This document shows positions 1-17,535 of a stretch of DNA of 21,670 bases, piece by piece; the first letter of the stretch is position 1, and the number at the start of each line of letters is the position of its first letter. The notes beneath the pieces were generated by a model. The model searched no databases. It was given only the letters and a program-made list of their open reading frames with translations, and had not been told where the DNA came from. The DNA lies in IMG/VR virus record IMGVR_UViG_3300021792_000023, positions 1-21,670 of that record, one strand, 5' to 3'. The DNA is from a virus. The position numbers were made by a program, and so were the translations under genes.

Positions 1-2360
1 CTTTCAATATTCTATCGACTTCTTCTGATGGCAAAGCACACCCATCAAAAGTTCCACTAAAACTTACACACTTCATTCCAGAGAATATACCTTCATTAAA
101 GGATGATAAAGAGCTACACCCATTAAAAGCATTTGACATATTAATAACCAATCTAATGTCAATCTCTTCAACCTTAACTACACTTGTGCAACCTTCCCAT
201 GTATTTGATAAAGTTTTAACTTTCAACAAAACTGTATCTTGATCCTTGATTGATGTTAGCGATGTGCAGTCTTTCCACGTTCCGTTCAAATGTTCTAATT
301 TTTCGGTGTTGTTCAAAACTGGCAAACTTGTTAAGGAAGAACACCCTTCCCAAGTATACATCAATCTATTTATATGTTTGAGATCAACTTCTGGTGTGGT
401 TACTAAACTCTCGCATCCTTTCCATGTTCTCTCTAATGACGACACACCTCTAGTGTTAATCGGTGGCATACTGGTAAGTGATTTACAAGAGTTCCATGTA
501 TAATCCATACTAGTCACATTATCAGTATTTATTGTAGGGAATGAACTCAAATGAGAACAATTATCCCATGCGAAATCCATATCCACCACATTTTCTGTGT
601 TTAAGTCTGGCATACTAGTTAAACTAACACAACCACTCCATGCCCTACTTAAAGTTTTTACATTACCAGTATCTAAATCTGAAGGAAATTTTATTAAGTT
701 GGAACAACTATACCATGTGCTATCCATACTGGTAACGCTACTAGTGTTTAACACATCTGGCATTGCTGTTATACCTCTACAATCTTGCCAAGTTTTTTCT
801 AAAGATCGAACATTACCAGTATCTAAAGTAGAAGGAAAACCTACTAGTGCTTTACAAGAATCCCAAGTCCCTCTCATATTTTCTACACTACTTGTATCCA
901 TATAATCCATACCAGTAACTTGATTACATCCTATGAAGGTATTCTCCATATTGATGACGTTCCCACCATTTTTGAGTTCTGGGAGTGCGGATAAACTAGA
1001 ACAACCCCAGAACATACCTTCTGTGGTTATGGCACTCGATAGATCCAATTCATTAGGAACTGAGGTTAAGTTACCACACAAATACCAAGTTTTATAAAAA
1101 TCAACAACATTACCAGTATCTAAAGTATTTGGCATTGTGGTTAATTTCCTACAATTAGACCACGTTTCATTCATACTAGTAACATTGCTAGTATTCAAAG
1201 TTGATGGAAAGTCAACCAATACCGAACACATACGCCATGTTTTCTCCATGTCAATAACGCTTGCAGTTTCTACATATGGCATTTTTTCAAGGTTAATACA
1301 ACCATTCCATGTTCTATACATACTTTTAACAAGACCAGTTGAACTTAATGTTGATGGCATTACGGTTAATCTTCCACAACCATCCCATGTTTTAATCATA
1401 GTTTCACATCTTGGTAAATTTAAAGTGAAAGGCATTTTACGCAATCTTCCACAACCACACCATGTCATATCTAAAGATTTAGTCGAATTTGTATTAAGTG
1501 CTGGTAGACCCATTAGATTCACACAGTCATTCCATGTTCTTTCCATAGTTTCGACATTTCTAAAATCCATAACCGAAGGCATATTTACTATTTCTAGACA
1601 ACCATCCCACGTTTCTTCCATATTCATGACATTAAATGTATCTAATACATCTGGAAATTTACTTACTTTAGAGCATCCTTTGAATGCCCTAGCCATAGTA
1701 AGAACACTATGTGTGTTTTTCAGATCTGGTATTGCCGTTAAAGATTCACATCCGTTCCAAGTCTCGTATAAATGAATTGCGTTGTTACATTCCAATTCTC
1801 TTGGAAACTGCACTAAGTTGGTGCATCCATTCCATGTCTGCCAAAGACTTTGGACATTACCAGTCTCTAATTCTATTGGCATAGCTGTTATATTACTACA
1901 TCCGTTCCACGTTCCTTCCATTAAAGTTACATTACTAGTATCCAATACTGCTGGAAAGGCAGTTAAAGACCGACATCCATTCCACGCATGGCTCATGTAT
2001 CTTAGATTTCTTGTATCGAGTGCTTCTGGTATCTGAACTAATTCGCCACAGTTCAAACACATTTCTCGCATATCTATTACATTTTTTGTATCCAATACTA
2101 ATGGGATTTCTTTTAATTTGTAACAATTTCTCCATGTAGCAAATAGATCAACACATTTAGACACATTTAATACATCTGGAACATTTTCCAATTCATAACA
2201 CCCATCCCATGTTCTCATTAATTCTGTTAAGTTAGTAGTATCTAATGTTTTTGGGAATTTTTTAAGTGAGTGGCAATAAGCCCACGCCAAATTAAAATCT
2301 TTCACATTTGATGTGTCTATATATGGCATTGCGGTCAAACCAGATCCATTCCAAGTGCCA
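1..2360 (-). repeat. About 32 tandem ~75-nt protein-coding repeats (LRR units)
   Basis: The minus strand shows a 72-78 nt period, each unit encoding one 24-26 residue LRR with an invariant-looking Cys and a nearly invariant Trp three residues before it. DNA identity between units is low, so the period is held by protein selection rather than recent slippage. Two units lack the standard Cys or Trp (the first, with WNGSG, and one with MCLNC near 2060). Confidence 0.85.
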
Positions 2361-2785
2361 TAGATACTTTTCATCTTACTTATATCAACCCCTTCTTCTG
2401 GTAAGGTCTTTAATTTTCTCATATACCTATTAACCCATTTGACACTTAATGAGTCATAATTAACATAACCACTCCAATCTAAAATTTCTATCACGTAGAT
2501 ATTAAAATAATTAAGATCATGATAGAAGTATCCATGTTTTGCCATTATTTTAATAGTATACACACCAGTAGTGGCGTATGTATGAGTTGTTCCGCTATCT
2601 CCTTTTCTATTAAATTTATCTCTTGTCCCATCACCCCAATATACCAGACCATTGTAGTTTGTGTTATCAAATAATGGTAAACGAATTGTAAGGTTAGTTG
2701 GATCAGTTATTTCTATAATAACTTCAAGTCTGTGTGATCTTCGTTGGCGTGAAAAGAAACCAGATTGTGTTGTTAAACCATGCAT
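1..2785 (-). CDS. Giant PKD + BspA/DUF285 leucine-rich-repeat protein, probable virion adhesin or fibre (partial, C-terminus outside window)
   Basis: The frame is open from an ATG at 2785 down to base 1, giving 928 residues without a stop; the end lies outside the window. Residues 30-100 look like a PKD-type beta domain (VYWGDGT near 48-54, THTYATTGVYTI near 67-78). From about residue 143 to the edge run about 32 repeats of 24-26 residues with the pattern TWxGCxxLxxMPxxLDTxNVxxM. This is the DUF285/BspA-like LRR family, but most repeats carry Trp where bacterial members have Phe (MFxGC). The last readable residues (TFDGCALPSEEVDRIL) resemble the usual end of such repeat domains. In known phages and bacteria these proteins are surface or adhesive; a tail-fibre or capsid-decoration role is inference. 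The start is supported by a late-type box (TGTAATTA, 2791-2798) at the fixed 5-nt distance seen for other virion genes. No signal peptide is visible. Confidence 0.85.
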   Translation of the reverse strand, partial: MHGLTTQSGFFSRQRRSHRLEVIIEITDPTNLTIRLPLFDNTNYNGLVYWGDGTRDKFNRKGDSGTTHTYATTGVYTIKIMAKHGYFYHDLNYFNIYVIEILDWSGYVNYDSLSVKWVNRYMRKLKTLPEEGVDISKMKSIYGTWNGSGLTAMPYIDTSNVKDFNLAWAYCHSLKKFPKTLDTTNLTELMRTWDGCYELENVPDVLNVSKCVDLFATWRNCYKLKEIPLVLDTKNVIDMREMCLNCGELVQIPEALDTRNLRYMSHAWNGCRSLTAFPAVLDTSNVTLMEGTWNGCSNITAMPIELETGNVQSLWQTWNGCTNLVQFPRELECNNAIHLYETWNGCESLTAIPDLKNTHSVLTMARAFKGCSKVSKFPDVLDTFNVMNMEETWDGCLEIVNMPSVMDFRNVETMERTWNDCVNLMGLPALNTNSTKSLDMTWCGCGRLRKMPFTLNLPRCETMIKTWDGCGRLTVMPSTLSSTGLVKSMYRTWNGCINLEKMPYVETASVIDMEKTWRMCSVLVDFPSTLNTSNVTSMNETWSNCRKLTTMPNTLDTGNVVDFYKTWYLCGNLTSVPNELDLSSAITTEGMFWGCSSLSALPELKNGGNVINMENTFIGCNQVTGMDYMDTSSVENMRGTWDSCKALVGFPSTLDTGNVRSLEKTWQDCRGITAMPDVLNTSSVTSMDSTWYSCSNLIKFPSDLDTGNVKTLSRAWSGCVSLTSMPDLNTENVVDMDFAWDNCSHLSSFPTINTDNVTSMDYTWNSCKSLTSMPPINTRGVSSLERTWKGCESLVTTPEVDLKHINRLMYTWEGCSSLTSLPVLNNTEKLEHLNGTWKDCTSLTSIKDQDTVLLKVKTLSNTWEGCTSVVKVEEIDIRLVINMSNAFNGCSSLSSFNEGIFSGMKCVSFSGTFDGCALPSEEVDRILK

Positions 2786-2790
2786 ATAGT

Positions 2791-2798
2791 TAATTACA
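2791..2798 (-). promoter_or_regulatory. Late-type promoter box TGTAATTA for the LRR gene
   Basis: The 8-mer ends 5 nt before the ATG at 2785, the same geometry as eleven other boxes in this window. No -35 hexamer and no Shine-Dalgarno sequence are present. It helps choose this ATG, because the frame stays open upstream without another ATG. Confidence 0.5.
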
Positions 2799-2832
2799 TA
2801 ATCTAGTCTGTAATTAGACCATATAAAATATA

Positions 2833-2880
2833 ATAAAAAAAACACACACCCCTCTTTCAAGGAATGTGTGTTTTTTTTTG
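2833..2880 (-). terminator. Rho-independent terminator (probably bidirectional) after the macro-domain gene
   Basis: A CACACA (2843-2848) / TGTGTG (2865-2870) stem is extended by flanking A/T tracts on both sides. On the minus strand it follows the macro-domain stop by about 30 nt and ends in a run of T, so it closes the 4635-2902 operon just before the late promoter of the LRR gene. Confidence 0.8.
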
Positions 2881-2901: not shown

Positions 2902-3363
2902 TCAACCACCATACACAACAATGGTAACATCAAATTTATCATCCAATACTTCTTTAATAATGCCTTCAATTCGTCCCCAGTCGCCTCCAGCCAGCCCAGC
3001 ACCAATCATTGGTAATCCGATTCGACATTTATCAAACTCGTCTCTTACACCCACTAGAGCTTGTTTTAAGGCATCATATTCAAATACATCACCACCCATA
3101 CTAAATCCGAATTGTGTATAAGCATTGATTACTGTAAATGTTCCCCCCACAGAATTTTTAATCTCTGCTTTTGTGTAAGAACCCAATTTGTTTTTATCAC
3201 CGAGTTCTGTTTCTTTATCTGCTTCATAAACATCATACCATTTATCGGCAATTGATCTGGCGATACCACCACCCATTGTGCAAAAGCAATTACACCCATG
3301 AATAATAATATCAAAATTTCCTTCGTCTGCTAACTTGATTAAGTCTCCTTTTATTGTTTTCAT
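2902..3363 (-). CDS. Macro-domain protein (ADP-ribose-1''-phosphate phosphatase / ADP-ribosyl hydrolase family)
   Basis: This 153-aa protein is essentially a lone macro domain. The visible signatures are the ADP-ribose-binding segments IIIHGCNCFCTMGGGIA (residues ~20-36) and PMIGAGLAGGDWGRIE (~118-133), with GTFTVINAYTQ between them. The family binds ADP-ribose and removes ADP-ribose groups or the 1''-phosphate of Appr-1''-p in the cytoplasm. The gene starts 7 nt after the metallophosphoesterase stop and is the last gene of that operon. In phages, macro proteins are linked to tRNA-splicing by-products, ADP-ribosylation reversal, or NAD+ metabolism. With NAMPT- and Prs-like genes in the same window, handling of free ADP-ribose is attractive, but that is inference. 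Confidence 0.9.
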   Translation of the reverse strand: MKTIKGDLIKLADEGNFDIIIHGCNCFCTMGGGIARSIADKWYDVYEADKETELGDKNKLGSYTKAEIKNSVGGTFTVINAYTQFGFSMGGDVFEYDALKQALVGVRDEFDKCRIGLPMIGAGLAGGDWGRIEGIIKEVLDDKFDVTIVVYGG

Positions 3364-6269: not shown

Positions 6270-6692
6270 TTAGTCGATGATGACATGGTGGAACGGAAGT
6301 GCTTTCACTTCCAATTTTCCGTCCACTACATTAACAACAATCTTATATTTACGTCCTTCTACAGTAACGATACTATTGGTATCAATCTGTGTGATTTCTC
6401 CAAGTTCTTCGGTATCTATAGAATCGAACTCAGTCATGTTGACCTCACCTTCCCATTCAAGGCGTGATTTGAGTGCCTCTTTATCAAATACTGCATCGAA
6501 CCCACAGCGATGAAGTTCGTTATAAAGGTCAATGTAACCTTGGATTGTATCTTGAACTTGGAAGAATGCACCTTGTCCCATAAAATAGGTGTAAAATACA
6601 TCCTCGTGTTTTAAGTTTGCAACTACACTCCGTGGTGAATTTGCATATTGTTCTTTAGAGAGCGAAAGTGTGAAGTTTGTAGTGGTGGTCAT
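6270..6692 (-). CDS. Hypothetical protein, 140 aa
   Basis: Not recognised. The N-terminal half is mixed helix/strand (TLSLSKEQYANSPRSVVANL, then YIDLYNELHRCGFDAVFDKEAL). After an acidic linker (DSIDTEELGEITQI) the C-terminal ~40 residues look like a small beta domain (SIVTVEGRKYKIVVNVVDGKLEV). There is no membrane segment. It is a single-gene unit between promoter P3 and its terminator. The leader is nearly identical to that of the 183-aa gene, so the two are probably made at the same time, early in infection. Confidence 0.7.
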   Translation of the reverse strand: MTTTTNFTLSLSKEQYANSPRSVVANLKHEDVFYTYFMGQGAFFQVQDTIQGYIDLYNELHRCGFDAVFDKEALKSRLEWEGEVNMTEFDSIDTEELGEITQIDTNSIVTVEGRKYKIVVNVVDGKLEVKALPFHHVIID

Positions 6693-6776
6693 GATTTTAA
6701 GTAGTTAGTAGTTTAAGTTATGCGGTCTGTCCCGCTGACGGAAATAGATATAGTGCAAAAATTAGAAAACGTCAAA
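6690..6776 (-). repeat. Promoter/leader cassette copy 2 (P3), 87 bp
   Basis: Partner of 5294-5380; 84 of 87 positions agree by eye. The genes behind the two copies share no visible protein similarity. Confidence 0.9.
6747..6775 (-). promoter_or_regulatory. Sigma70-type promoter P3
   Basis: -35 TTGACG (6770-6775), 17-nt spacer, -10 TATATC (6747-6752). The leader hairpin GCGG/CCGC is at 6722-6735. It is divergent from the gp16 late box at 6812-6819. Confidence 0.7.
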
Positions 6777-6811
6777 TAAAAATTGATAAATTTGTGAATT
6801 TATTTTTTATG

Positions 6812-6819
6812 CCTAATTA
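6812..6819 (+). promoter_or_regulatory. Late-type promoter box CCTAATTA for gp16
   Basis: The box ends 5 nt before the ATG at 6825. It is a weaker match (first two bases differ from YA) but keeps TAATTA and the exact distance. Confidence 0.4.
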
Positions 6820-6824
6820 TTGGT

Positions 6825-7349
6825 ATGGAAATTGAACACGACGAACTATCAGACTTTATGAAGGAACTTGCTGATTCTGAATTAGATATACCAGAGAAGA
6901 TTGAACGAGAAGTCCAGACTATCACAGAAGAGAATATGGAGGATGTTCTTCTGGCAGAGCTAGGAAGTGTATTGGCAACTTGTAAAGAAGTGGGTGAAAC
7001 ACTAGCAGATAGAATTGCTTCTGGTGATACATATGAAGGAACTATGATGGGTTTTGCACAAGCAACCGATAACTTAATGAAATCTTTGAAGTTTTTGGAT
7101 AACCGAAAAACTATGAAAGAAAAGCACCAGTTGGAATTAGAGAAAATGCAGAAAGCACACGAACTCAGAATGAAAGAAATCGAGAAACGTAATGAAGGTA
7201 GGAATACTGGTGTTAAATCTATCACTAATAATGTATTTGTCGGGAGTCGTAAAGATTTCTTAAAACAAGCACAGTTGGGGATGAAAAATATCGATGCCAT
7301 CGATGTGGTAGCAACATCATCAAAAAATAAAACTAAGAATAAAAAATAG
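6825..7349 (+). CDS. 16: Small terminase subunit, T4 gp16-like
   Basis: This 174-aa acidic-to-basic protein is close in length to T4 gp16 (about 165 aa). An acidic N-terminus precedes a long helical/coiled-coil core (about residues 68-125, including KTMKEKHQLELEKMQKAHEL). A C-terminal NNVFVGSRKDFLKQ segment (~134-147) matches the VFxGS motif conserved near the end of T4-type gp16. The small terminase forms a ring that recognises DNA and stimulates the gp17 motor-nuclease during packaging. The Lys-rich tail (KNKTKNKK) could contact DNA. gp17 is not in the window. The last 17 nt overlap the convergent end of the split homing endonuclease. The assignment rests on architecture and the VFxGS motif, so it is likely rather than certain. 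Confidence 0.7.
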   Translation: MEIEHDELSDFMKELADSELDIPEKIEREVQTITEENMEDVLLAELGSVLATCKEVGETLADRIASGDTYEGTMMGFAQATDNLMKSLKFLDNRKTMKEKHQLELEKMQKAHELRMKEIEKRNEGRNTGVKSITNNVFVGSRKDFLKQAQLGMKNIDAIDVVATSSKNKTKNKK

Positions 7350-7959
7350 ATCTAACAAAATCTAATAATTCCAATTCCCCTTTAGATTTACTGTTATTAC
7401 ACTTAGGACACCCCTTGGATGCAAGATGTGTGTTTGGTAATTGCTCAAAACATCCGTGTTTTGGACATTTTATAATTACTGGTTTTTTACTGTGTTCATA
7501 TTCCACTAGATCGTAATCATAAAAACCACCATGAATCTCAGTAGCGGATTCTTTAAATTGTTCCGTATTTGAGTATGATTTTTTTATACTACATTCTCTA
7601 CATCCTTTACCTCGTAGATGGTTGTCTGGAGTTACATAAAACTCTCCATGATGTGGACACACCACACAAATCTTGGTCTTTTGATTAGTAAGTTTTTCTA
7701 TTTTAGAATAGTCATATTTGCCTTTGTGGACATCTTCTGCCTTCATTTTAAACTCATCCAGACCCATTGTCCTATTCGCATACGAACACTTCTTACATCC
7801 CCTTCCACGCAGATGATTGGATGGGAATTGTTCAAACTCTCCATGTGTTGGACATATAATCGTAACTTTAGTTCTAGTGTTTTTAAAATTCACCAAACTA
7901 TAATCATATTTCCCATTGAATACTTTATCACATCTTTCTATAAATTCTTCTTGTGTCAT
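7333..7959 (-). CDS. Split homing endonuclease, N-terminal half (three DUF723-type repeats + first nuclease helix)
   Basis: This 208-aa protein has three repeats of about 60-65 residues with the pattern KYDYSxVxF...VxIICPxHGxFxxxPxxHLxGxGCxxC (Cys/His pairs near 35-57, 98-120 and 164-187). This is the DUF723-like zinc-binding DNA-recognition module found in front of phage homing endonucleases. After the last CPKC comes SKGELELLDFVRSIF and then a stop. GELELLDFV is the normal first helix of the PD-(D/E)xK nuclease core that should follow in the same chain. The rest of that core is in the separate upstream ORF (7956-8795). The ATG overlaps that ORF's stop by 4 nt (ATGA), so the two are co-translated. 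It acts, if active, as a DNA endonuclease promoting its own spread. Confidence 0.82.
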   Translation of the reverse strand: MTQEEFIERCDKVFNGKYDYSLVNFKNTRTKVTIICPTHGEFEQFPSNHLRGRGCKKCSYANRTMGLDEFKMKAEDVHKGKYDYSKIEKLTNQKTKICVVCPHHGEFYVTPDNHLRGKGCRECSIKKSYSNTEQFKESATEIHGGFYDYDLVEYEHSKKPVIIKCPKHGCFEQLPNTHLASKGCPKCNNSKSKGELELLDFVRSIFYS

Positions 7960-8795
7960 TTATCCCATCTCCAAACTTTATTACCACAGTCCCATATTCT
8001 ATCATACCCATTGTTAAACATATTCTGAACTTCTGTTAATTCTGGATCAAAATTATCTAATAGTTTGGGTAGTTTGTGTTTCTGGTATTTATTTCTAGAT
8101 TCCAGTTTAACAGTTCGTGGGTCTGCACCTTTAAAATAGAAATAATTGGGTTTTGATTCGTGCATAAACTTAAACCCAAGTCCCTCATACATACCACCAG
8201 TAAACAATCTAATATCAGAATATGTGGTTATAGTTTCTGGGTTATATTCCTTTACAAAGTGTTTGAATAGTTTCTTAGATCCACCGATGATTTTATAATC
8301 TTCTTTTACTACATATCTTATCAATTCCCATTGGTGTTTTGAGAAACGTGATTTACCGAATGTCATTAGAGAAACCATTTCATCCCCATCAAATAATGCA
8401 TATCTCACCGATGCATTAACACTACCTTGTAGATGGTATTTATTAAGGAATGTAGTTGCTGTTTTCGATGATACCTTGTGTATAGATAATTTTCTACCAT
8501 ACAATTTTTTCCCATCTTTATTCCCCAGAGCATTCTTTATCAAATACTCAACTTTCGTTCTCTTTTGCTCCCATTCAAAATCAAAAATATGAATCAACCT
8601 AATACCCTTCTTTTCACATTCTTTTGTTTTGTTTAAATGGTAGTTCTTATCCCTCCTTCCAGTATTCTCGGAATGGTAATAAATACCATTATATTCAATA
8701 GCTAAATTAAGAGATGGGATGTAAATATCCAACTCTTTACCATTCAATACACTTCTGTCACCAGAAATAATTTGTTCATCCGTCTCTAAATTCAT
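7956..8795 (-). CDS. Split homing endonuclease, C-terminal half (PD-(D/E)xK-like nuclease body), permuted upstream of its N-terminal half
   Basis: This 279-aa protein begins MNLETDEQIISGDRSVLNG and continues KELDIYIPSLNLAIEYNGIYYHSE (~20-43), the D...(E)xN core of the phage homing-endonuclease family. Further family features follow: KTKECEKKGIRLIHIFDFEW (~55-74), KYHLQGSVNASVRYALF (~119-135), LMTFGKSRFSKHQWELIRY (~143-161) and a typical end, YDRIWDCGN. Family members normally start with DUF723 repeats and a helix such as GELELLDFV, which are absent here but end the next ORF. A TAA lies directly before the ATG, so there is no longer frame. The catalytic residues needed for strand cleavage appear present, but a complete fold would require the partner ORF. 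Confidence 0.82.
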   Translation of the reverse strand: MNLETDEQIISGDRSVLNGKELDIYIPSLNLAIEYNGIYYHSENTGRRDKNYHLNKTKECEKKGIRLIHIFDFEWEQKRTKVEYLIKNALGNKDGKKLYGRKLSIHKVSSKTATTFLNKYHLQGSVNASVRYALFDGDEMVSLMTFGKSRFSKHQWELIRYVVKEDYKIIGGSKKLFKHFVKEYNPETITTYSDIRLFTGGMYEGLGFKFMHESKPNYFYFKGADPRTVKLESRNKYQKHKLPKLLDNFDPELTEVQNMFNNGYDRIWDCGNKVWRWDK

Positions 8796-8833
8796 TTATG
8801 ATATATATTATCACGAAAATGCAAATAAGCAAA

Positions 8834-8865
8834 AAAAAGGTAGAGAACTTAATCTCTACCTTTTT
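8834..8865 (-). terminator. Bidirectional rho-independent terminator after gp23
   Basis: A perfect 8-bp stem GGTAGAGA (8839-8846) / TCTCTACC (8853-8860), 6-nt loop, flanked by A and T runs that extend it to 13 bp. On the minus strand it follows the capsid stop by about 25 nt and ends in a T run. Confidence 0.88.
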
Positions 8866-8890
8866 GTTTAGGGGGGTTAATGATAAGATA

Positions 8891-10429
8891 TTACCAAAGG
8901 AACTTCTTATTAACACCAGTCGTATCGTCGAATCCATCAGTAAGATCCTTCAAGATGATGGTGTGATAGAAGTTGCTTGCTCCGTTAAGCGACGATGCAA
9001 TTGCGTAACGAGTTGAAAGACCAATCCGTGGGGAGAAGTCGTTCGGACCCATTGTGCGTTGCACCATTACTGGGATGTAAGGGAGGTAAATCAAGCCAGA
9101 ATCCCAGCTTTCAGTTCCCTTGTATCCGAGGAGGATGTAGTCAACACGATGTTCACGACCGATTGCTTGGCTACCACCAAACTGGTTATCTTGGTAACCT
9201 TGGTATTGAGCTTCTGTCCGTGTATCAACAAACACTTTGATCGCACCGAGTGTTCCAGCACGGCTGTTACCGAATTGCTGGTCTACGTTACCATCAATCG
9301 TGAATGGCTTGAAGTTAGGAAGAGTTTCAAGGATCGAACAAGCGTAAGGAGTGACAACTGCGAAGTTGGCAGAACCACGTCTGTTACGAAGCGAGATGAG
9401 ACGTGCTTGAACACGAATAGCTTGCCAAAGGTTGACAGAACGCTCTGCTGACCAACGACCATCAGCTTCTGCTGGTGACCAAGTCGAGTAACCTTTTTTC
9501 GGACCAGCGGAGAGAGACACGTTGAGCATACGAAGAAGAATCTCACGATCAATTTCAGCTTGGAGTTCGTAAGACATCATTGATGTCATTTCGTCATCCA
9601 CGGAAATTCCATGCATATTCATGAGGTCTTGCTCCAACTCGATTGAGTATTTGATAGCAAGTTTACGAGAACCAGCAGAAACTGCGGTTTTCTCGATGCC
9701 CATTGACATTTGTGGAAGTGCTGTAGACATCTCAAGTGAGCTAAGAAGGTTAGCTACACCTTGATCTTCTGGAATGAATGCGAAGTCTGTTGCTGAAGTT
9801 GCACCAGCACCTTGAACACCAAGACCAGACAATGCACTAGATGAGACACCAGTATGTCTTGTGTTGAGGTAGTTGTGGCTTGCTTCTTGTCCATCACCAC
9901 GATTGGGGAATTTAATATCGGGATTAGGATTAGGTCCGTTATCTGGAGAGTTTTCACCCAAGTTTTCTTCGATGTATTTGAAACGAAGTGCGAAAGCAAG
10001 ACCAACTGGTGCGTTCATTGGCTGAATACCAACGATTTCGTTTGCCAAGAGTTCTGGGAACGTCCGTCGAATCATTGGCATGATTACGTTAGGTAGACGA
10101 GCGTCACCTTTAGCGTAGAAATCATTAGAAGCTGGATTTACTTGGTTTCCGTATGCACCAGCATCAACTGGGTTAGCTGGGTCATATCCAGTAAACACAC
10201 CAACTCCACCAGCTTGAAGAGCAGTATCTTCAGTAACGAGTTCTGGAACACGTCCGTAGATTTCTGGGTTGTTACGCATATAGTTATACTGGTTCTCAAG
10301 GAGAACAGCAGTCATAACTGCTTTACGCTTCGTGTCGAGGGGCTTTAAGTCTGCATCTTGTGCTTCAAGAAGAGGCTTCCATTTTTGTAGGAGAATTGCT
10401 GGATCTCCTTGTCCGTATTGTGTATTCAT
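8891..10429 (-). CDS. 23: Major capsid protein, T4 gp23-like
   Basis: This 512-aa protein matches T4 gp23 (521 aa) in length and order. It has an N-terminal LLQKWKPLLE helix like T4's LLNKWKPLLE, then a protease-cleaved propeptide with ELVTE|D near residues 63-68 at the position of T4 FLTE|A (residue 65). MPMIRRTFPELLANEIVGIQPMNAPVGLAFALR follows at about 117-149, and PRIGLSTRYA near the C-terminus. It forms the hexamers of the head shell after gp21 processing. Codon use looks more GC-rich than its neighbours, as expected of the most highly expressed gene. Residues 97-111 (VNPASNDFYAKGDAR) recur almost unchanged in the 186-aa protein at 11436. A TATAATTA box precedes it, but 9 nt rather than 5 nt from the ATG, giving a short predicted leader. 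Confidence 0.95.
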   Translation of the reverse strand: MNTQYGQGDPAILLQKWKPLLEAQDADLKPLDTKRKAVMTAVLLENQYNYMRNNPEIYGRVPELVTEDTALQAGGVGVFTGYDPANPVDAGAYGNQVNPASNDFYAKGDARLPNVIMPMIRRTFPELLANEIVGIQPMNAPVGLAFALRFKYIEENLGENSPDNGPNPNPDIKFPNRGDGQEASHNYLNTRHTGVSSSALSGLGVQGAGATSATDFAFIPEDQGVANLLSSLEMSTALPQMSMGIEKTAVSAGSRKLAIKYSIELEQDLMNMHGISVDDEMTSMMSYELQAEIDREILLRMLNVSLSAGPKKGYSTWSPAEADGRWSAERSVNLWQAIRVQARLISLRNRRGSANFAVVTPYACSILETLPNFKPFTIDGNVDQQFGNSRAGTLGAIKVFVDTRTEAQYQGYQDNQFGGSQAIGREHRVDYILLGYKGTESWDSGLIYLPYIPVMVQRTMGPNDFSPRIGLSTRYAIASSLNGASNFYHTIILKDLTDGFDDTTGVNKKFLW

Positions 10430-11435: not shown

Positions 11436-11996
11436 ATGTCAGAATTTGAAAAAGTAATAAACGAGATGTTGAGTGGCGTTGTCATCCCTACTGGAAATGA
11501 CAGTCCTAAAGAGACTTTAGTCAATCCAGCCAATGATGATTTCTATGCGAGGGGCGATTCTCGTAATGTTGTTGGCAGAAAACCAAGAAAGAAAAAACGC
11601 AACAAGCGAGTTCCTCATTCTAGAAAAAGGACAAGAAAGCGCAAACCACTTCAAGAAATGGCTGGTAAAGTTATTCACAAAAAAATGAGCGAAGAACATC
11701 CAGAATTGAGAAGAAAAATTCTTTTCGAGACTGGATTCAACATGGCTTATATGGAGAATAGATTTGAGTGCCTAGAACGTATTTCTAATAGAGTCCTCAA
11801 TCCAACAAGAAAGGTTAATAATAGATACCAAAACAGACCTATTAACAAACCACTTAAAAAACACGTCTTTGAGGATATTGATTGGAAGAGATTAAAAAGA
11901 GAAATCGATCTACATCTTGGTGATGATGTTTATTTCATCTGTGCATCTATTAATGAAGATAAAGATACTATTACATTCAAATACGAGTTTATTTAA
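11436..11996 (+). CDS. Basic, late-expressed protein; candidate internal head protein sharing a capsid-protein peptide (186 aa)
   Basis: Not assigned to a named family. Three parts are visible. (1) The first ten residues, MSEFEKVINE, end in an IxE motif, like the ten-residue capsid-targeting sequence of T4 internal proteins (cut by gp21 after Glu10). (2) Residues 29-43 (VNPANDDFYARGDSR) share 11 of 15 residues with gp23 residues 97-111. (3) An Arg/Lys-rich block at ~47-80 (GRKPRKKKRNKR, RKRTRKRKP) suggests binding to DNA, followed by a mixed helical C-terminus ending in a DDVYFICASINEDKDTITFKYEF beta region. It lies next to gp22/gp23, on the opposite strand, under a late box. A packaged DNA-associated protein is my best guess; it remains inference. 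Confidence 0.75.
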   Translation: MSEFEKVINEMLSGVVIPTGNDSPKETLVNPANDDFYARGDSRNVVGRKPRKKKRNKRVPHSRKRTRKRKPLQEMAGKVIHKKMSEEHPELRRKILFETGFNMAYMENRFECLERISNRVLNPTRKVNNRYQNRPINKPLKKHVFEDIDWKRLKREIDLHLGDDVYFICASINEDKDTITFKYEFI

Positions 11997-12453
11997 ATTC
12001 TTTTAAAATATCATCAAGCATATCATGCGCTTCTAGAACTTTCACATGGAAGGTTTTAAAATCTAGTTTGTGTGGTGGTGATGAGATTCTTAAATTCAAT
12101 ATCCCATTATATGATGAATCTAATATCAATGCGTGTTGACTAAATTGGAAACTGGTTTCTACATAATTCAATTCCCATTTACTTTCACCAATATAGAGTA
12201 TTGTTTTTTCAATCTCATCACCACTTTTAATATCAAAATTCAAATTCTTACTAGATCCAGTATATTTTCTCCAATCAGATTCTTTGGTCACTTTTCTTTT
12301 ACGAACTTTTCCTTTCAATGGAGGTAGTCGTTTTGTTGACCAAAACTTTTTTTGTCCGATATACCATTTACCAGAAGTTTTATTTACTATAATGTAAACA
12401 AACCCAATCATAGATTCTTCTATTTCTTCTGGTGCATTTTTCCATTCAACCAT
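11989..12453 (-). CDS. GIY-YIG-type endonuclease (homing endonuclease-like), 154 aa
   Basis: The protein carries the GIY-YIG fold elements: GFVYIIVNKTSGKWYIGQKKF (about residues 17-37), a basic loop KRLPPLKGKVRKRK, ESDWRKYTGSS, the glutamate-bearing helix ELNYVETSFQFSQHALIL, and a closing Asn in YNGILNL. This family includes phage homing endonucleases and small free-standing nucleases. I place the start at the ATG at 12453 (MVEWKN) because a CGTAATTA late-type box ends exactly 5 nt upstream. A TTG at 12486 and an ATG at 12459 are possible but lack support. Its 3' end overlaps the convergent 186-aa gene by 8 nt. It sits between head and neck genes, a common place for phage endonuclease insertion. 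Confidence 0.82.
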   Translation of the reverse strand: MVEWKNAPEEIEESMIGFVYIIVNKTSGKWYIGQKKFWSTKRLPPLKGKVRKRKVTKESDWRKYTGSSKNLNFDIKSGDEIEKTILYIGESKWELNYVETSFQFSQHALILDSSYNGILNLRISSPPHKLDFKTFHVKVLEAHDMLDDILKEFK

Positions 12454-12458
12454 GAACA

Positions 12459-12466
12459 TAATTACG
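12459..12466 (-). promoter_or_regulatory. Late-type promoter box CGTAATTA for the GIY-YIG gene
   Basis: The box ends 5 nt before the ATG at 12453 and decides the start. Divergent from the promoter at 12473-12502. Confidence 0.4.
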
Positions 12467-12472
12467 AATAAT

Positions 12473-12502
12473 TTGATTACTGTCAAATTCGTGCTATAAT
12501 AT
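12473..12502 (+). promoter_or_regulatory. Promoter of the 133-aa gene (TTGATT -16- TATAAT, also late-type geometry)
   Basis: -35 TTGATT (12473-12478), 16-nt spacer, extended -10 TGCTATAAT (hexamer 12495-12500). The 8-mer TATAATAT ends 5 nt before the ATG. This site could serve both polymerase forms. Confidence 0.55.
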
Positions 12503-14804: not shown

Positions 14805-14996
14805 TTATTTTAGATAATCTTCTGCTTTCTGAATTACCTTTTCATATTTTTTTATTACTGGGCATTCCTCCGACCAATCATGTCTTTCGTTTTTATTGTG
14901 ATGTAGATTATCACAATCTAATCGATTTGCATAAATGAGCCTTAGAAGATCGGAAATGATAATTTTAGCTTTTAGGGTTTCTCGTTCGTCTTTCAT
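14805..14996 (-). CDS. Hypothetical protein, 63 aa
   Basis: This small charged helical protein (MKDERETLKAKIIISDLLRL ... KYEKVIQKAEDYLK) has a Cys/His-containing middle (CDNLHHNKNERHDWSEECP) that could bind a metal, although the C-H-H-H-C spacing matches no family I know. It overlaps the end of the NAMPT-like gene by 32 nt in another frame and ends just before the terminator, so it is the last gene of that transcript. The overlap is long, and initiation further in cannot be excluded. Confidence 0.5.
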   Translation of the reverse strand: MKDERETLKAKIIISDLLRLIYANRLDCDNLHHNKNERHDWSEECPVIKKYEKVIQKAEDYLK

Positions 14997-16527
14997 TTTT
15001 TCTAATATTTTCTCTCACATCATCAAGTGTAGTTAAGTTTGTAAATTCTCCTTCAACATATACTGTTTTGAGTTCATTGTCTTTACTATTAACTTCCTCC
15101 CAAGAACTTTCATCTTTAGCATAGTATTCACCATTCTCGTCCTTATACACAACAATCAAACCTTTTGCAGATTTTTTAAGACCATCATCGGTTTTTGGAT
15201 TTTTGAAAATTGCTCTTCCTTCTCCATTGATTTCGACATAGGTTGCTTTAATAGCCATCCCGTGTGTATCTCTGGTGACAATACAGTCGGGAGAAACAGC
15301 ACCTTGATACGTGAATGAACCAATACCAAGAACGATATTACAAGAAGCGAAACCTTTTTGTTTAAGACGATATAGGATTTCTTCTGCACGAGCAATTGTG
15401 ATAGAATCTCCATAGATAGCACCAATATGTTCATCTAGAATTTTATATCCTTGTTCATTTTCAGTTCCACCAAAGATTTCATAGAGGCATTGGATCATAC
15501 CCTTCTTCTCTAGTTCGGTAAGTTTGTCCCATTCACTTCGTGGCATTTGTTTTCTATCATTTCCGTCATATCCACAGATGATGTGAACTGGATCTCCACT
15601 ATCTGGACGAACCACAGTCTTGCCATCACGTTTCATAATAATATCTTTAAGACGTGCAATGATACCCCCATCTGGATTTACTACTTGCCAGAAATCCCAT
15701 GTGTCAGATACAATAGACACGATACCAGTTGGGTGGACTTCAGTAATCATCCTTTTGAATGTATCATATTCATTCATGTCACCACCAGCACACATACAAG
15801 AGTGTTCGCTGGCTGGGACACTAGCACCAACCATTTCCTTCTCACAATCTGCATTATAGTAATACTCCATACCAACAATTGCTGGGATTGTATCTGTTCC
15901 ACAGAAAGATGTAAGGTGTGCCATACCAGACATCATTGCGGATTGGCTACCAAACATCCCACGATAAGAGAAATCATGACCTTGGAATTTACAAGATCCA
16001 ATTTCATCTGGACAAGTTTCATTTGCATAATATTCAAAGATTCCTCTGTAAATATTTGCAGTAGTCGCAGAAGTAATAAATCCCCAAGTATTGGCACTAA
16101 ATTCAGTTTCGATGAAATTGGTCAACCAATAAAACTCTGGTTTTGTATTCCAGAATTGAACCATAGGAACTCGCAATGGGACACTAGCACCTTCGGGTAA
16201 TGCAGTAAATTCCAATGGCAGATACCCCAAATCATGTAGTGCTTCGATATGTTCTACTTCGGTATCACCACCGAGAGATGCATCTAAGATTCTCTTGAAT
16301 GATTTTACTACTTCTTCTTTTGGTTTCTCAAAGAAATTGTATTGGAAATCATCATGCAACATCATAATAGATGCTTGTGTTCCAAAATGGATAACAGACT
16401 TCAAACCTTCTACTCGTGTCCCACGAGCGGTCAAGTTTGAAACAACAACTTCAGTTCCTTCTGGATACTGTTTGCGGTGACTTTGTTTATAAAAGTCAGT
16501 TTTTAATACTGGGTTAATGTTCAACAT
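14965..16527 (-). CDS. nadV: Nicotinamide phosphoribosyltransferase-like enzyme (NadV/NAMPT family; candidate Namat)
   Basis: This 520-aa protein is a full-length NAMPT-family member (human enzyme about 491 aa). Visible family motifs are DFYKQSHRKQYP (~11-22), QGHDFSYRGM (~182-191), SFCGTDT (~207-213, with the nicotinamide-site Asp212), VPASEHSC (~238-244, with the catalytic His242), VSDTWDFW (~273-280), VVRPDSGDP (~305-313), AIYGDSIT (~370-377), LGIGSF (~400-405) and RDTHGMAIKAT (~419-429). The classical reaction makes NMN from nicotinamide and PRPP. In the phage NARP1 pathway a homologue instead joins nicotinamide to ADP-ribose pyrophosphate, giving NAD+ directly. The Prs-like gene directly upstream fits either scheme. 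It has its own sigma70 promoter overlapping the end of prs, with the ATG 6 nt after the -10, so a leaderless mRNA is likely. Confidence 0.93.
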   Translation of the reverse strand: MLNINPVLKTDFYKQSHRKQYPEGTEVVVSNLTARGTRVEGLKSVIHFGTQASIMMLHDDFQYNFFEKPKEEVVKSFKRILDASLGGDTEVEHIEALHDLGYLPLEFTALPEGASVPLRVPMVQFWNTKPEFYWLTNFIETEFSANTWGFITSATTANIYRGIFEYYANETCPDEIGSCKFQGHDFSYRGMFGSQSAMMSGMAHLTSFCGTDTIPAIVGMEYYYNADCEKEMVGASVPASEHSCMCAGGDMNEYDTFKRMITEVHPTGIVSIVSDTWDFWQVVNPDGGIIARLKDIIMKRDGKTVVRPDSGDPVHIICGYDGNDRKQMPRSEWDKLTELEKKGMIQCLYEIFGGTENEQGYKILDEHIGAIYGDSITIARAEEILYRLKQKGFASCNIVLGIGSFTYQGAVSPDCIVTRDTHGMAIKATYVEINGEGRAIFKNPKTDDGLKKSAKGLIVVYKDENGEYYAKDESSWEEVNSKDNELKTVYVEGEFTNLTTLDDVRENIRKNERRTRNPKS

Positions 16528-16565: not shown

Positions 16566-17498
16566 TTAACAGAAATAAATATTATCATCGACTTCTGTAT
16601 CGATATTTAATGAGGTTGCTGTGTCTAGAGTGGTAACAACCATTCCATATTTCTCAGACACATTTTTTAATCCTTCAACACAATCTGCGTGTGTAACCAT
16701 AAGACAAAGGTTTTCTTTTGTAGCACCACACTCCATAAGGATATCTGCGAGTCCAAGAAATGTTCCTCCCATCCCACAGACATCATCAACCACAATAACA
16801 AAGTCATCCTTATCAATATTACATTCACTACAACCAAAACTAATAATCTTTCCAGTAGCTGGATCTCTGTGTTTCTCACCTTGCACAAATTCTGTAATAA
16901 TTCTTGTGTCACTTTCATAATGCTCCGTGTAAGAATCAAGAATTGCATTTACATTTTGTAATGCTTCCCAACTACGTTTTGATGCACCAGCATCTGGAGC
17001 AACAATAAAGATTCTCTTTCCTTGATATGTCTCGTAGTCAAATACACCAAGAAATAGATCAGCAAATCGGTCTTTAACGATACAGTTCTTAATCAATGAC
17101 GGCATAACATCAGAATGTGGTGTATCGGTAGTAACCGATTCAAAACCCATACCATTAATAATATTAGCAACAACATATGCGGAAAGCGGTTGACCTTCAG
17201 AACACACTCGGTCTTGTCTACTACCCATGATGTAGGGAGCATACAAATGTATTGTAGGTTGTTTTCTAGTTCCTCTACGTTTTAGAGCATCTACAACCAA
17301 AGCAAGATCAATCAAATCATTCGCATTTTTAATACTATATTTGATTGTATAAGTTACTTTTAAATCCGCATAATAAACGTCAAACTCTTCAAGAACTGGC
17401 ATACGCTCACCAGATGGAAATGTGACAAATTTAACTTCCTCTGTGAATCCTACACGATCTTCTCCTAATCCGAAAATACTTTCTCTATATATTAACAT
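16566..17498 (-). CDS. prs: Ribose-phosphate pyrophosphokinase-like enzyme (Prs family; candidate ADP-ribose pyrophosphate synthetase)
   Basis: This 310-aa protein has PRPP-synthetase family motifs: LYAPYIMGSRQDR (~85-97, the ATP-binding RQD), PLSAYVVANIINGMGF (~104-119), TPHSDVMPS (~126-134, catalytic His128), IVAPDAGASKR (~165-175, catalytic Lys/Arg) and VVDDVCGMGGT (~236-246). Normal Prs transfers pyrophosphate from ATP to ribose-5-phosphate. Here the 5'-phosphate loop, DTGGT in E. coli and DTAGT in B. subtilis, reads GMGGT, so the Asp and the first Thr are replaced. That could fit a larger substrate such as ADP-ribose (NARP1 Adps), but is not proof. I choose the ATG at 17498; a GTG at 17519 would place the start codon upstream of the -10 box. 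The NAMPT-like gene follows directly. Confidence 0.9.
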   Translation of the reverse strand: MLIYRESIFGLGEDRVGFTEEVKFVTFPSGERMPVLEEFDVYYADLKVTYTIKYSIKNANDLIDLALVVDALKRRGTRKQPTIHLYAPYIMGSRQDRVCSEGQPLSAYVVANIINGMGFESVTTDTPHSDVMPSLIKNCIVKDRFADLFLGVFDYETYQGKRIFIVAPDAGASKRSWEALQNVNAILDSYTEHYESDTRIITEFVQGEKHRDPATGKIISFGCSECNIDKDDFVIVVDDVCGMGGTFLGLADILMECGATKENLCLMVTHADCVEGLKNVSEKYGMVVTTLDTATSLNIDTEVDDNIYFC

Positions 17499-17507
17499 AA
17501 CGTCTGT

Positions 17508-17535
17508 ATTATAACACACGTTGTGAGATATGCAA
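17508..17535 (-). promoter_or_regulatory. Sigma70-type promoter of the Prs-like gene
   Basis: -35 TTGCAT (17530-17535), 16-nt spacer, -10 TATAAT (17508-17513), ATG 9 nt downstream. The -35 overlaps the T run of the gp21 terminator. Confidence 0.7.

Follow-up and report, generated by a model that had tools for sequence, protein, structure and literature searches.

Parts of a Hef-like homing endonuclease in swapped order behind the capsid gene of a T4-like phage

Hef-like homing endonucleases are encoded as one chain, in which an array of DUF723-type repeats is followed by a helix and then by the nuclease core. In a distant T4-like phage, the same parts are spread over two ORFs behind the major capsid gene (gp23), with the core first. 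Is this a rearranged gene whose two products would still form one enzyme, or is it what remains of genes that no longer work? As far as can be judged from the sequence, the arrangement is real, and the two ORFs derive from the Hef-like family (phrog_559/3339) without being a canonical member of it. We favor a working split nuclease slightly over a recent relic.

Two overlapping ORFs behind gp23

We analysed a 21,670-nt stretch of the phage's DNA (hereafter, the window). ORF A (7956..8795, minus strand; 279 aa) encodes a Vsr/EDxHD-type nuclease core without its first helix, and then a Mom/GNAT-like C-terminal domain. ORF B (7333..7959, minus strand; 208 aa) encodes three DUF723 zinc repeats and then the nuclease helix alphaA. 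As an earlier note on this DNA had reported, the stop of A and the start of B overlap in the sequence ATGA (7956..7959, minus strand), which is where the ancestral C- and N-terminal ends would meet. The left neighbour is gp23 (8891..10429, minus strand; Pfam Gp23, E = 3e-76). The right neighbour is a convergent ORF with no assigned function (6825..7349, plus strand); the last 17 nt of this ORF overlap the end of B, and it has an apparent counterpart in the sister phage L032 (at 8547-9077). In the outer flanks, we found no remnant of A after B and no helix before A, just the gp23 terminator and about 40 bases. GC content (0.32 for A and 0.34 for B) and codon usage do not separate the two ORFs.

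The start of B has a Shine-Dalgarno-like GGAG (7969..7972, minus strand), which lies 9 nt before the ATG and within the end of A and which, along with the ATGA overlap, would couple the translation of B to that of A. Upstream of A, we found no clear ribosome-binding site of its own and no strong promoter. A is preceded by the intrinsic terminator of gp23 (8834..8865, minus strand) and, directly before its ATG, by a weak promoter-like site (8798..8825, minus strand; 9/12 matches). This site shows no excess over shuffled sequences, and its position is like that of the promoter-like sites in L032, L033, and L269. The layout of a terminator and then a gene also precedes the genes at this site in other phages: in L032, L033, L035, L269, L293, L316, and L345, the gene stands behind the gp23 terminator, usually with a TTGAC/TATAAT-like promoter. 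These promoters are so near the start codon that the messages of several of the same-site genes may be leaderless. The weak site before A is placed in a similar way, but this is no more than suggestive.

Several other genes in the window are worth recording. A second homing-endonuclease-like gene (11989-12486, minus strand) is of the SegE type, with a GIY-YIG match (Pfam E = 4e-27), and lies in the same structural cluster. A gene for a nicotinamide phosphoribosyltransferase-like protein (14965-16527, minus strand), named just from reading its sequence, adjoins a PRPP-synthetase-like gene (16566-17519, minus strand), and these are perhaps an NAD-restoring pair. An ORF of about 950 aa (2-2860, minus strand) runs off the end of the window and contains repeats like ETWNGCxxLxxxPxxLDTSNVxxM. 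We take these to resemble BspA/DUF285-type surface repeats, and the protein is perhaps an adhesin or a tail-fibre protein. There is also a weak macro-domain match at 2902-3363.

Comparison with intact relatives

On the phrog_559 profile (607 positions), B covers positions 123-320 and A covers positions 325-601. The profile places B before A, the reverse of their order in the genome, and just some 4 of its positions are lost between the two. A reaches the end of this profile, which implies that the family's C-terminal domain is present, and it also matches phrog_3339 at 272-534. A search with gp23 identified two sister phages, L032 and L033, whose gp23 is about 73% identical to that of the window. 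Each has one intact canonical ORF (489 aa in L032 and 495 aa in L033) in the same place, just after gp23 and its terminator. These proteins are the closest relatives of A (54-55% identity), while their arrays are merely 35-38% identical to B, as compared to 47-50% for other arrays. The earlier note proposed that B followed by A should be compared with intact relatives, and that order is indeed collinear with L033: residues 2-206 of B correspond to residues 17-223, and residues 5-277 of A correspond to residues 223-495. B ends and A begins at residue 223 of L033, and therefore nothing was lost. The profile and the two positional homologues bear out the note's claims that the order is permuted and that little sequence is missing.

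The note had also placed the break inside the nuclease fold, and the structural models agree. In the AlphaFold model of the intact L033 protein (pLDDT 90), residues 206-218 form a helix, 219-223 a loop, and 224-231 a strand, so that the modelled split point is the loop between alphaA and beta1 (219-223 in L033 numbering). (The model is numbered from a start that lies four residues into the stop-to-stop frame that we used for alignment; the boundary is equal within a few residues.) The one-chain model has a pTM of 0.64, so its placement of the repeats is uncertain. A profile of the intact relatives aligns with the structure of I-Bth0305I (3r3p) from its first helix on (E = 5e-9), and hence the nuclease fold includes the helix of B as an integral element. 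The intact model also matches the structure of Vsr (1vsr, E = 3.5e-3). I-Bth0305I, an EDxHD/Vsr-type homing endonuclease, and Vsr share this fold with the window, but they are not split and have other DNA-binding parts, and the solved 105-aa chain of I-Bth0305I lacks the Mom-like domain. In the window, neither chain holds the complete Vsr-type fold, as the first helix is encoded in B.

Each fragment is well preserved. A begins with NLETDEQIISGDRSVLNGKELDIYIP, in the linker that follows alphaA in its relatives, and extends to the usual C-terminus of the family. Its nuclease core, from strand beta1 (DRSVLNGKELDIYIP...IEYNGIYYHSE; 8526..8768, minus strand), makes it an EDxHD/Vsr-type homolog: the profile of A matches the catalytic domain of I-Bth0305I (3r3p, E = 3e-8), and D23, E34, G37, and H41, which are invariant in the alignment of relatives, are all present. 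Of the 36 positions that are conserved in at least 90% of relatives, A keeps 34 (the relatives' median is 94%). AlphaFold predicts a confident fold for A alone, without the helix (pLDDT 94). The C-terminal domain (8130..8510, minus strand) has a fold similar to that of Mom from phage Mu (Foldseek 8bv8, E = 7e-7) and matches phrog_1384. Mom is a GNAT-like DNA-modification enzyme, and the same fold is found in the C-terminal part of A's relatives, one of which (L035) exceeds the Pfam cutoff for Mom.

B matches DUF723 from Pfam (E = 1e-15), and its three repeats, which are of the treble-clef kind, all score normally against the family repeat profile: 91.5 bits for repeat 1 (7786..7944), 67.6 bits for repeat 2 (7591..7752), and 84.8 bits for repeat 3 (7399..7557; all on the minus strand), or 92, 68, and 85 when rounded, with a family median of 82. 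After the repeats comes helix alphaA (SKGELELLDFVRS; 7348..7392, minus strand), which aligns with the helix at 206-218 of L033 and carries the family-consensus Glu, and B stops 21 aa past the last repeat. A protein search with B alone did not confirm any viral relative. Neither A nor B has a stop, a frameshift, or an evident loss of conserved residues. Fragments that complement each other without loss, with the break in a loop, are what a split enzyme should have.

The Hef-like enzymes (phrog_559 and phrog_3339; Hef73 of Campylobacter phage; annotated as similar to the Hef of phage U5) are homologous to A and B along their length and share the DUF723-type array, alphaA, the ELDIYIP...IEYNGxYWHSE core, and the C-terminal domain. 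We surveyed 232 domains of the A type from 188 loci and later extended the survey to 268 loci. The window was the only one with a nuclease body that lacks the N-terminal helix, followed by an ORF with DUF723 repeats only; the same permuted order in related phages, which the earlier note suggested looking for, did not turn up a second time among these 268 loci. Fragmented genes apart (the Campylobacter phage records L038 and L039 hold split or frameshifted pieces of such genes), every ORF that encodes the core has the array or the helix ahead of it. The note had recognized that relatives whose nuclease body naturally lacks the helix would undermine its reading, and we found none: even the repeat-less bodies in L014 and L100 have a helix-like stretch at the N-terminus. 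Among repeat-only ORFs with at least three repeats and away from contig ends, only B stops right after the helix, and the others have tails of about 100 aa or more, which are mostly nuclease-like. A degenerate DNA pattern of the A/B joint had no match in viral_contigs, and we found no permuted or split homing endonuclease in the open-access literature that we searched.

How the order may have been inverted

The site after gp23 is occupied in several ways. We examined 56 gp23 loci whose downstream sequence was 1.5 kb or longer. Six of them have an intact gene there (L032, L033, L035, L293, L316, and L345), and one, L269, has a relic with a large internal deletion: at 6591-6930, about 1.5 DUF723 repeats run, out of frame, into the final ~20 residues of the nuclease (RIWDCGNNVWIWEDKS). 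L270 has no such gene after gp23. In L014, several such genes stand in a row with tight junctions beside gp23, on the opposite strand (convergent to gp23), and those that keep their repeats are in the canonical order. Because of the intact genes, the array of L014, and the relic of L269, we conclude that insertion, tandem arrays, and deletion all occur after gp23.

We propose that a tandem pair of Hef-like genes once stood after gp23 of the window's phage. Deletions would have taken the DUF723-plus-helix half of gene 1 and the core half of gene 2, which would leave the core (A, from gene 1) first and the array with alphaA (B, from gene 2) second. Such an origin needs no new mechanism. Tandem pairs on the same strand are common in the family, often with stop/start joints that are tight or overlap; these range from a 14 nt overlap to a 3 nt gap in L014, L047, L094, L126, L205, and L206, and the A|B joint looks like one of them. 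Also, tandem amplification in the T-even phage T6 has been traced to a homing endonuclease, SegB (PMC13096335). We infer that a tandem intermediate is most likely. The earlier note had suggested tandem duplication and outer deletions. The tandem arrays favor this part of its account, while a single ancestral gene for A and B is not established.

The precision of the break needs an explanation. By our own estimate, the breakpoints of two independent neutral deletions on ~490 codons would agree within 5 residues about 2% of the time. The residue-exact complement would be explained by selection for completeness, by a single event, or by a preferred boundary. A preferred boundary is plausible because the intact proteins switch identity just before ELDIYIP. 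In intact pairs with 72-88% identical cores and dissimilar arrays, the identity jumps there, which implies that arrays travel together with helix alphaA. (For instance, L001/L003, L002/L005, and others have cores that are 76-88% identical and dissimilar DUF723 arrays; at that level of core identity, arrays can be only 33-41% identical.) The break in the window lies some 15-20 residues before this switch boundary. Domain shuffling between homing endonucleases has also been published (PMC10448857). Since members of the family swap DUF723 arrays near this boundary, A and B may or may not once have belonged to a single gene. We compared the nearest relatives of A and B for signs of a shared lineage; they differ, but intact members show the same discordance between core and array, so that it neither proves nor excludes a single origin.

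If the gene was instead circularised, or its blocks exchanged, in one step, so that it was opened at the alphaA/beta1 linker and closed at its old ends, then the residue-exact complement follows automatically from the single break. We think this unlikely: A and B meet in a clean ATGA without extra sequence, as in tandem pairs, the outer edges show no target-site duplication and no shared repeat or microhomology above 7 nt, and the nearest relatives of A and B differ. This origin competes with the tandem origin only. It fits either a working or a dead product, so its likelihood and those given below are not mutually exclusive.

A working enzyme or a relic

Our leading interpretation, which we hold tentatively and as close to an even chance, is that A and B are a rearranged Hef-like gene that arose from a tandem pair and whose products assemble in trans. 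A and B would be translated from a shared message, with the ATGA overlap linking the two, and would assemble without a peptide bond, with the C-terminal alphaA of B docking on core A. The docked helix would complete the Vsr-type nuclease, and the zinc repeats of B would supply the target site. Intact members exchange the array and the helix together, so helices and cores from different parents are evidently compatible in natural chimeras. It is quite possible, then, that these are two co-translated polypeptides in permuted order, with a core that is completed in trans by the helix of an exchangeable DNA-binding protein. Expression, assembly, and activity are inferred, as is the tandem intermediate. 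Split phage genes whose products reassemble are known: NrdA of Aeh1 and gene 43A/43B of phage 25 (PMC2988022). As in those cases, one enzyme would be made as two polypeptides, which in the window would reassemble by docking. In contrast, NrdA and 43A/43B keep the canonical order, and what interrupts the host gene there is a homing endonuclease or an untranslated stretch; in the window, it is the homing endonuclease that is in two pieces, and these stand in inverted order.

It is somewhat less likely, though still quite possible, that the locus is instead a recent relic: the outer halves of the same tandem pair were lost accidentally, and A and B are open because too little time has passed, although neither works. 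Genes of this kind do decay, as in the deletion at the same site in L269 and the broken pieces in L038 and L039. A lies just behind the gp23 terminator, with the weak promoter-like site as its only candidate promoter and without a clear ribosome-binding site, and the arrangement is unique among the surveyed loci, with no relative near enough for a test of selection. That the halves differ in their nearest relative also counts against the leading interpretation, but is not decisive. On the other hand, accidental loss would have had to leave fragments that complement each other to the residue in one loop, with the roughly 2% chance estimated above, and to spare both ORFs from stops, frameshifts, and evident loss of conserved residues.

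Alternatively, A and B might have separate functions, with B as a free-standing DNA-binding regulator or site-blocker and A as a leftover or an independent enzyme. B is a complete zinc-repeat array beside a capsid gene, and there is a precedent in CapR of PLE satellites, a capsid repressor that is related to the DNA-binding domains of homing endonucleases (PMC10448857). However, the match of B to CapR in Pfam is weak (21.7 bits) and falls below the curated cutoff (24.2), B keeps the nuclease helix, and the comparable repeat-only ORFs carry long and mostly nuclease-like tails, which makes separate functions improbable. It is very improbable that an ordinary intact gene was turned into a chimera during assembly or amplification: this is a single metagenome contig, and a search for an independent copy found none, but a chimera would need three clean joints, one of them a perfect ATGA, and the flanks and both ORFs are intact.

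If A and B cooperate, then they are a natural split nuclease whose targeting and cutting parts are separate and are joined only by a docking helix. New target sites could then be reached by a simple route, and nature would offer a design for a targeted nuclease in two parts. If the pair is a relic, it is still instructive: the intact, deleted, absent, and permuted states at a single site after gp23 show how tandem selfish genes recombine and decay.
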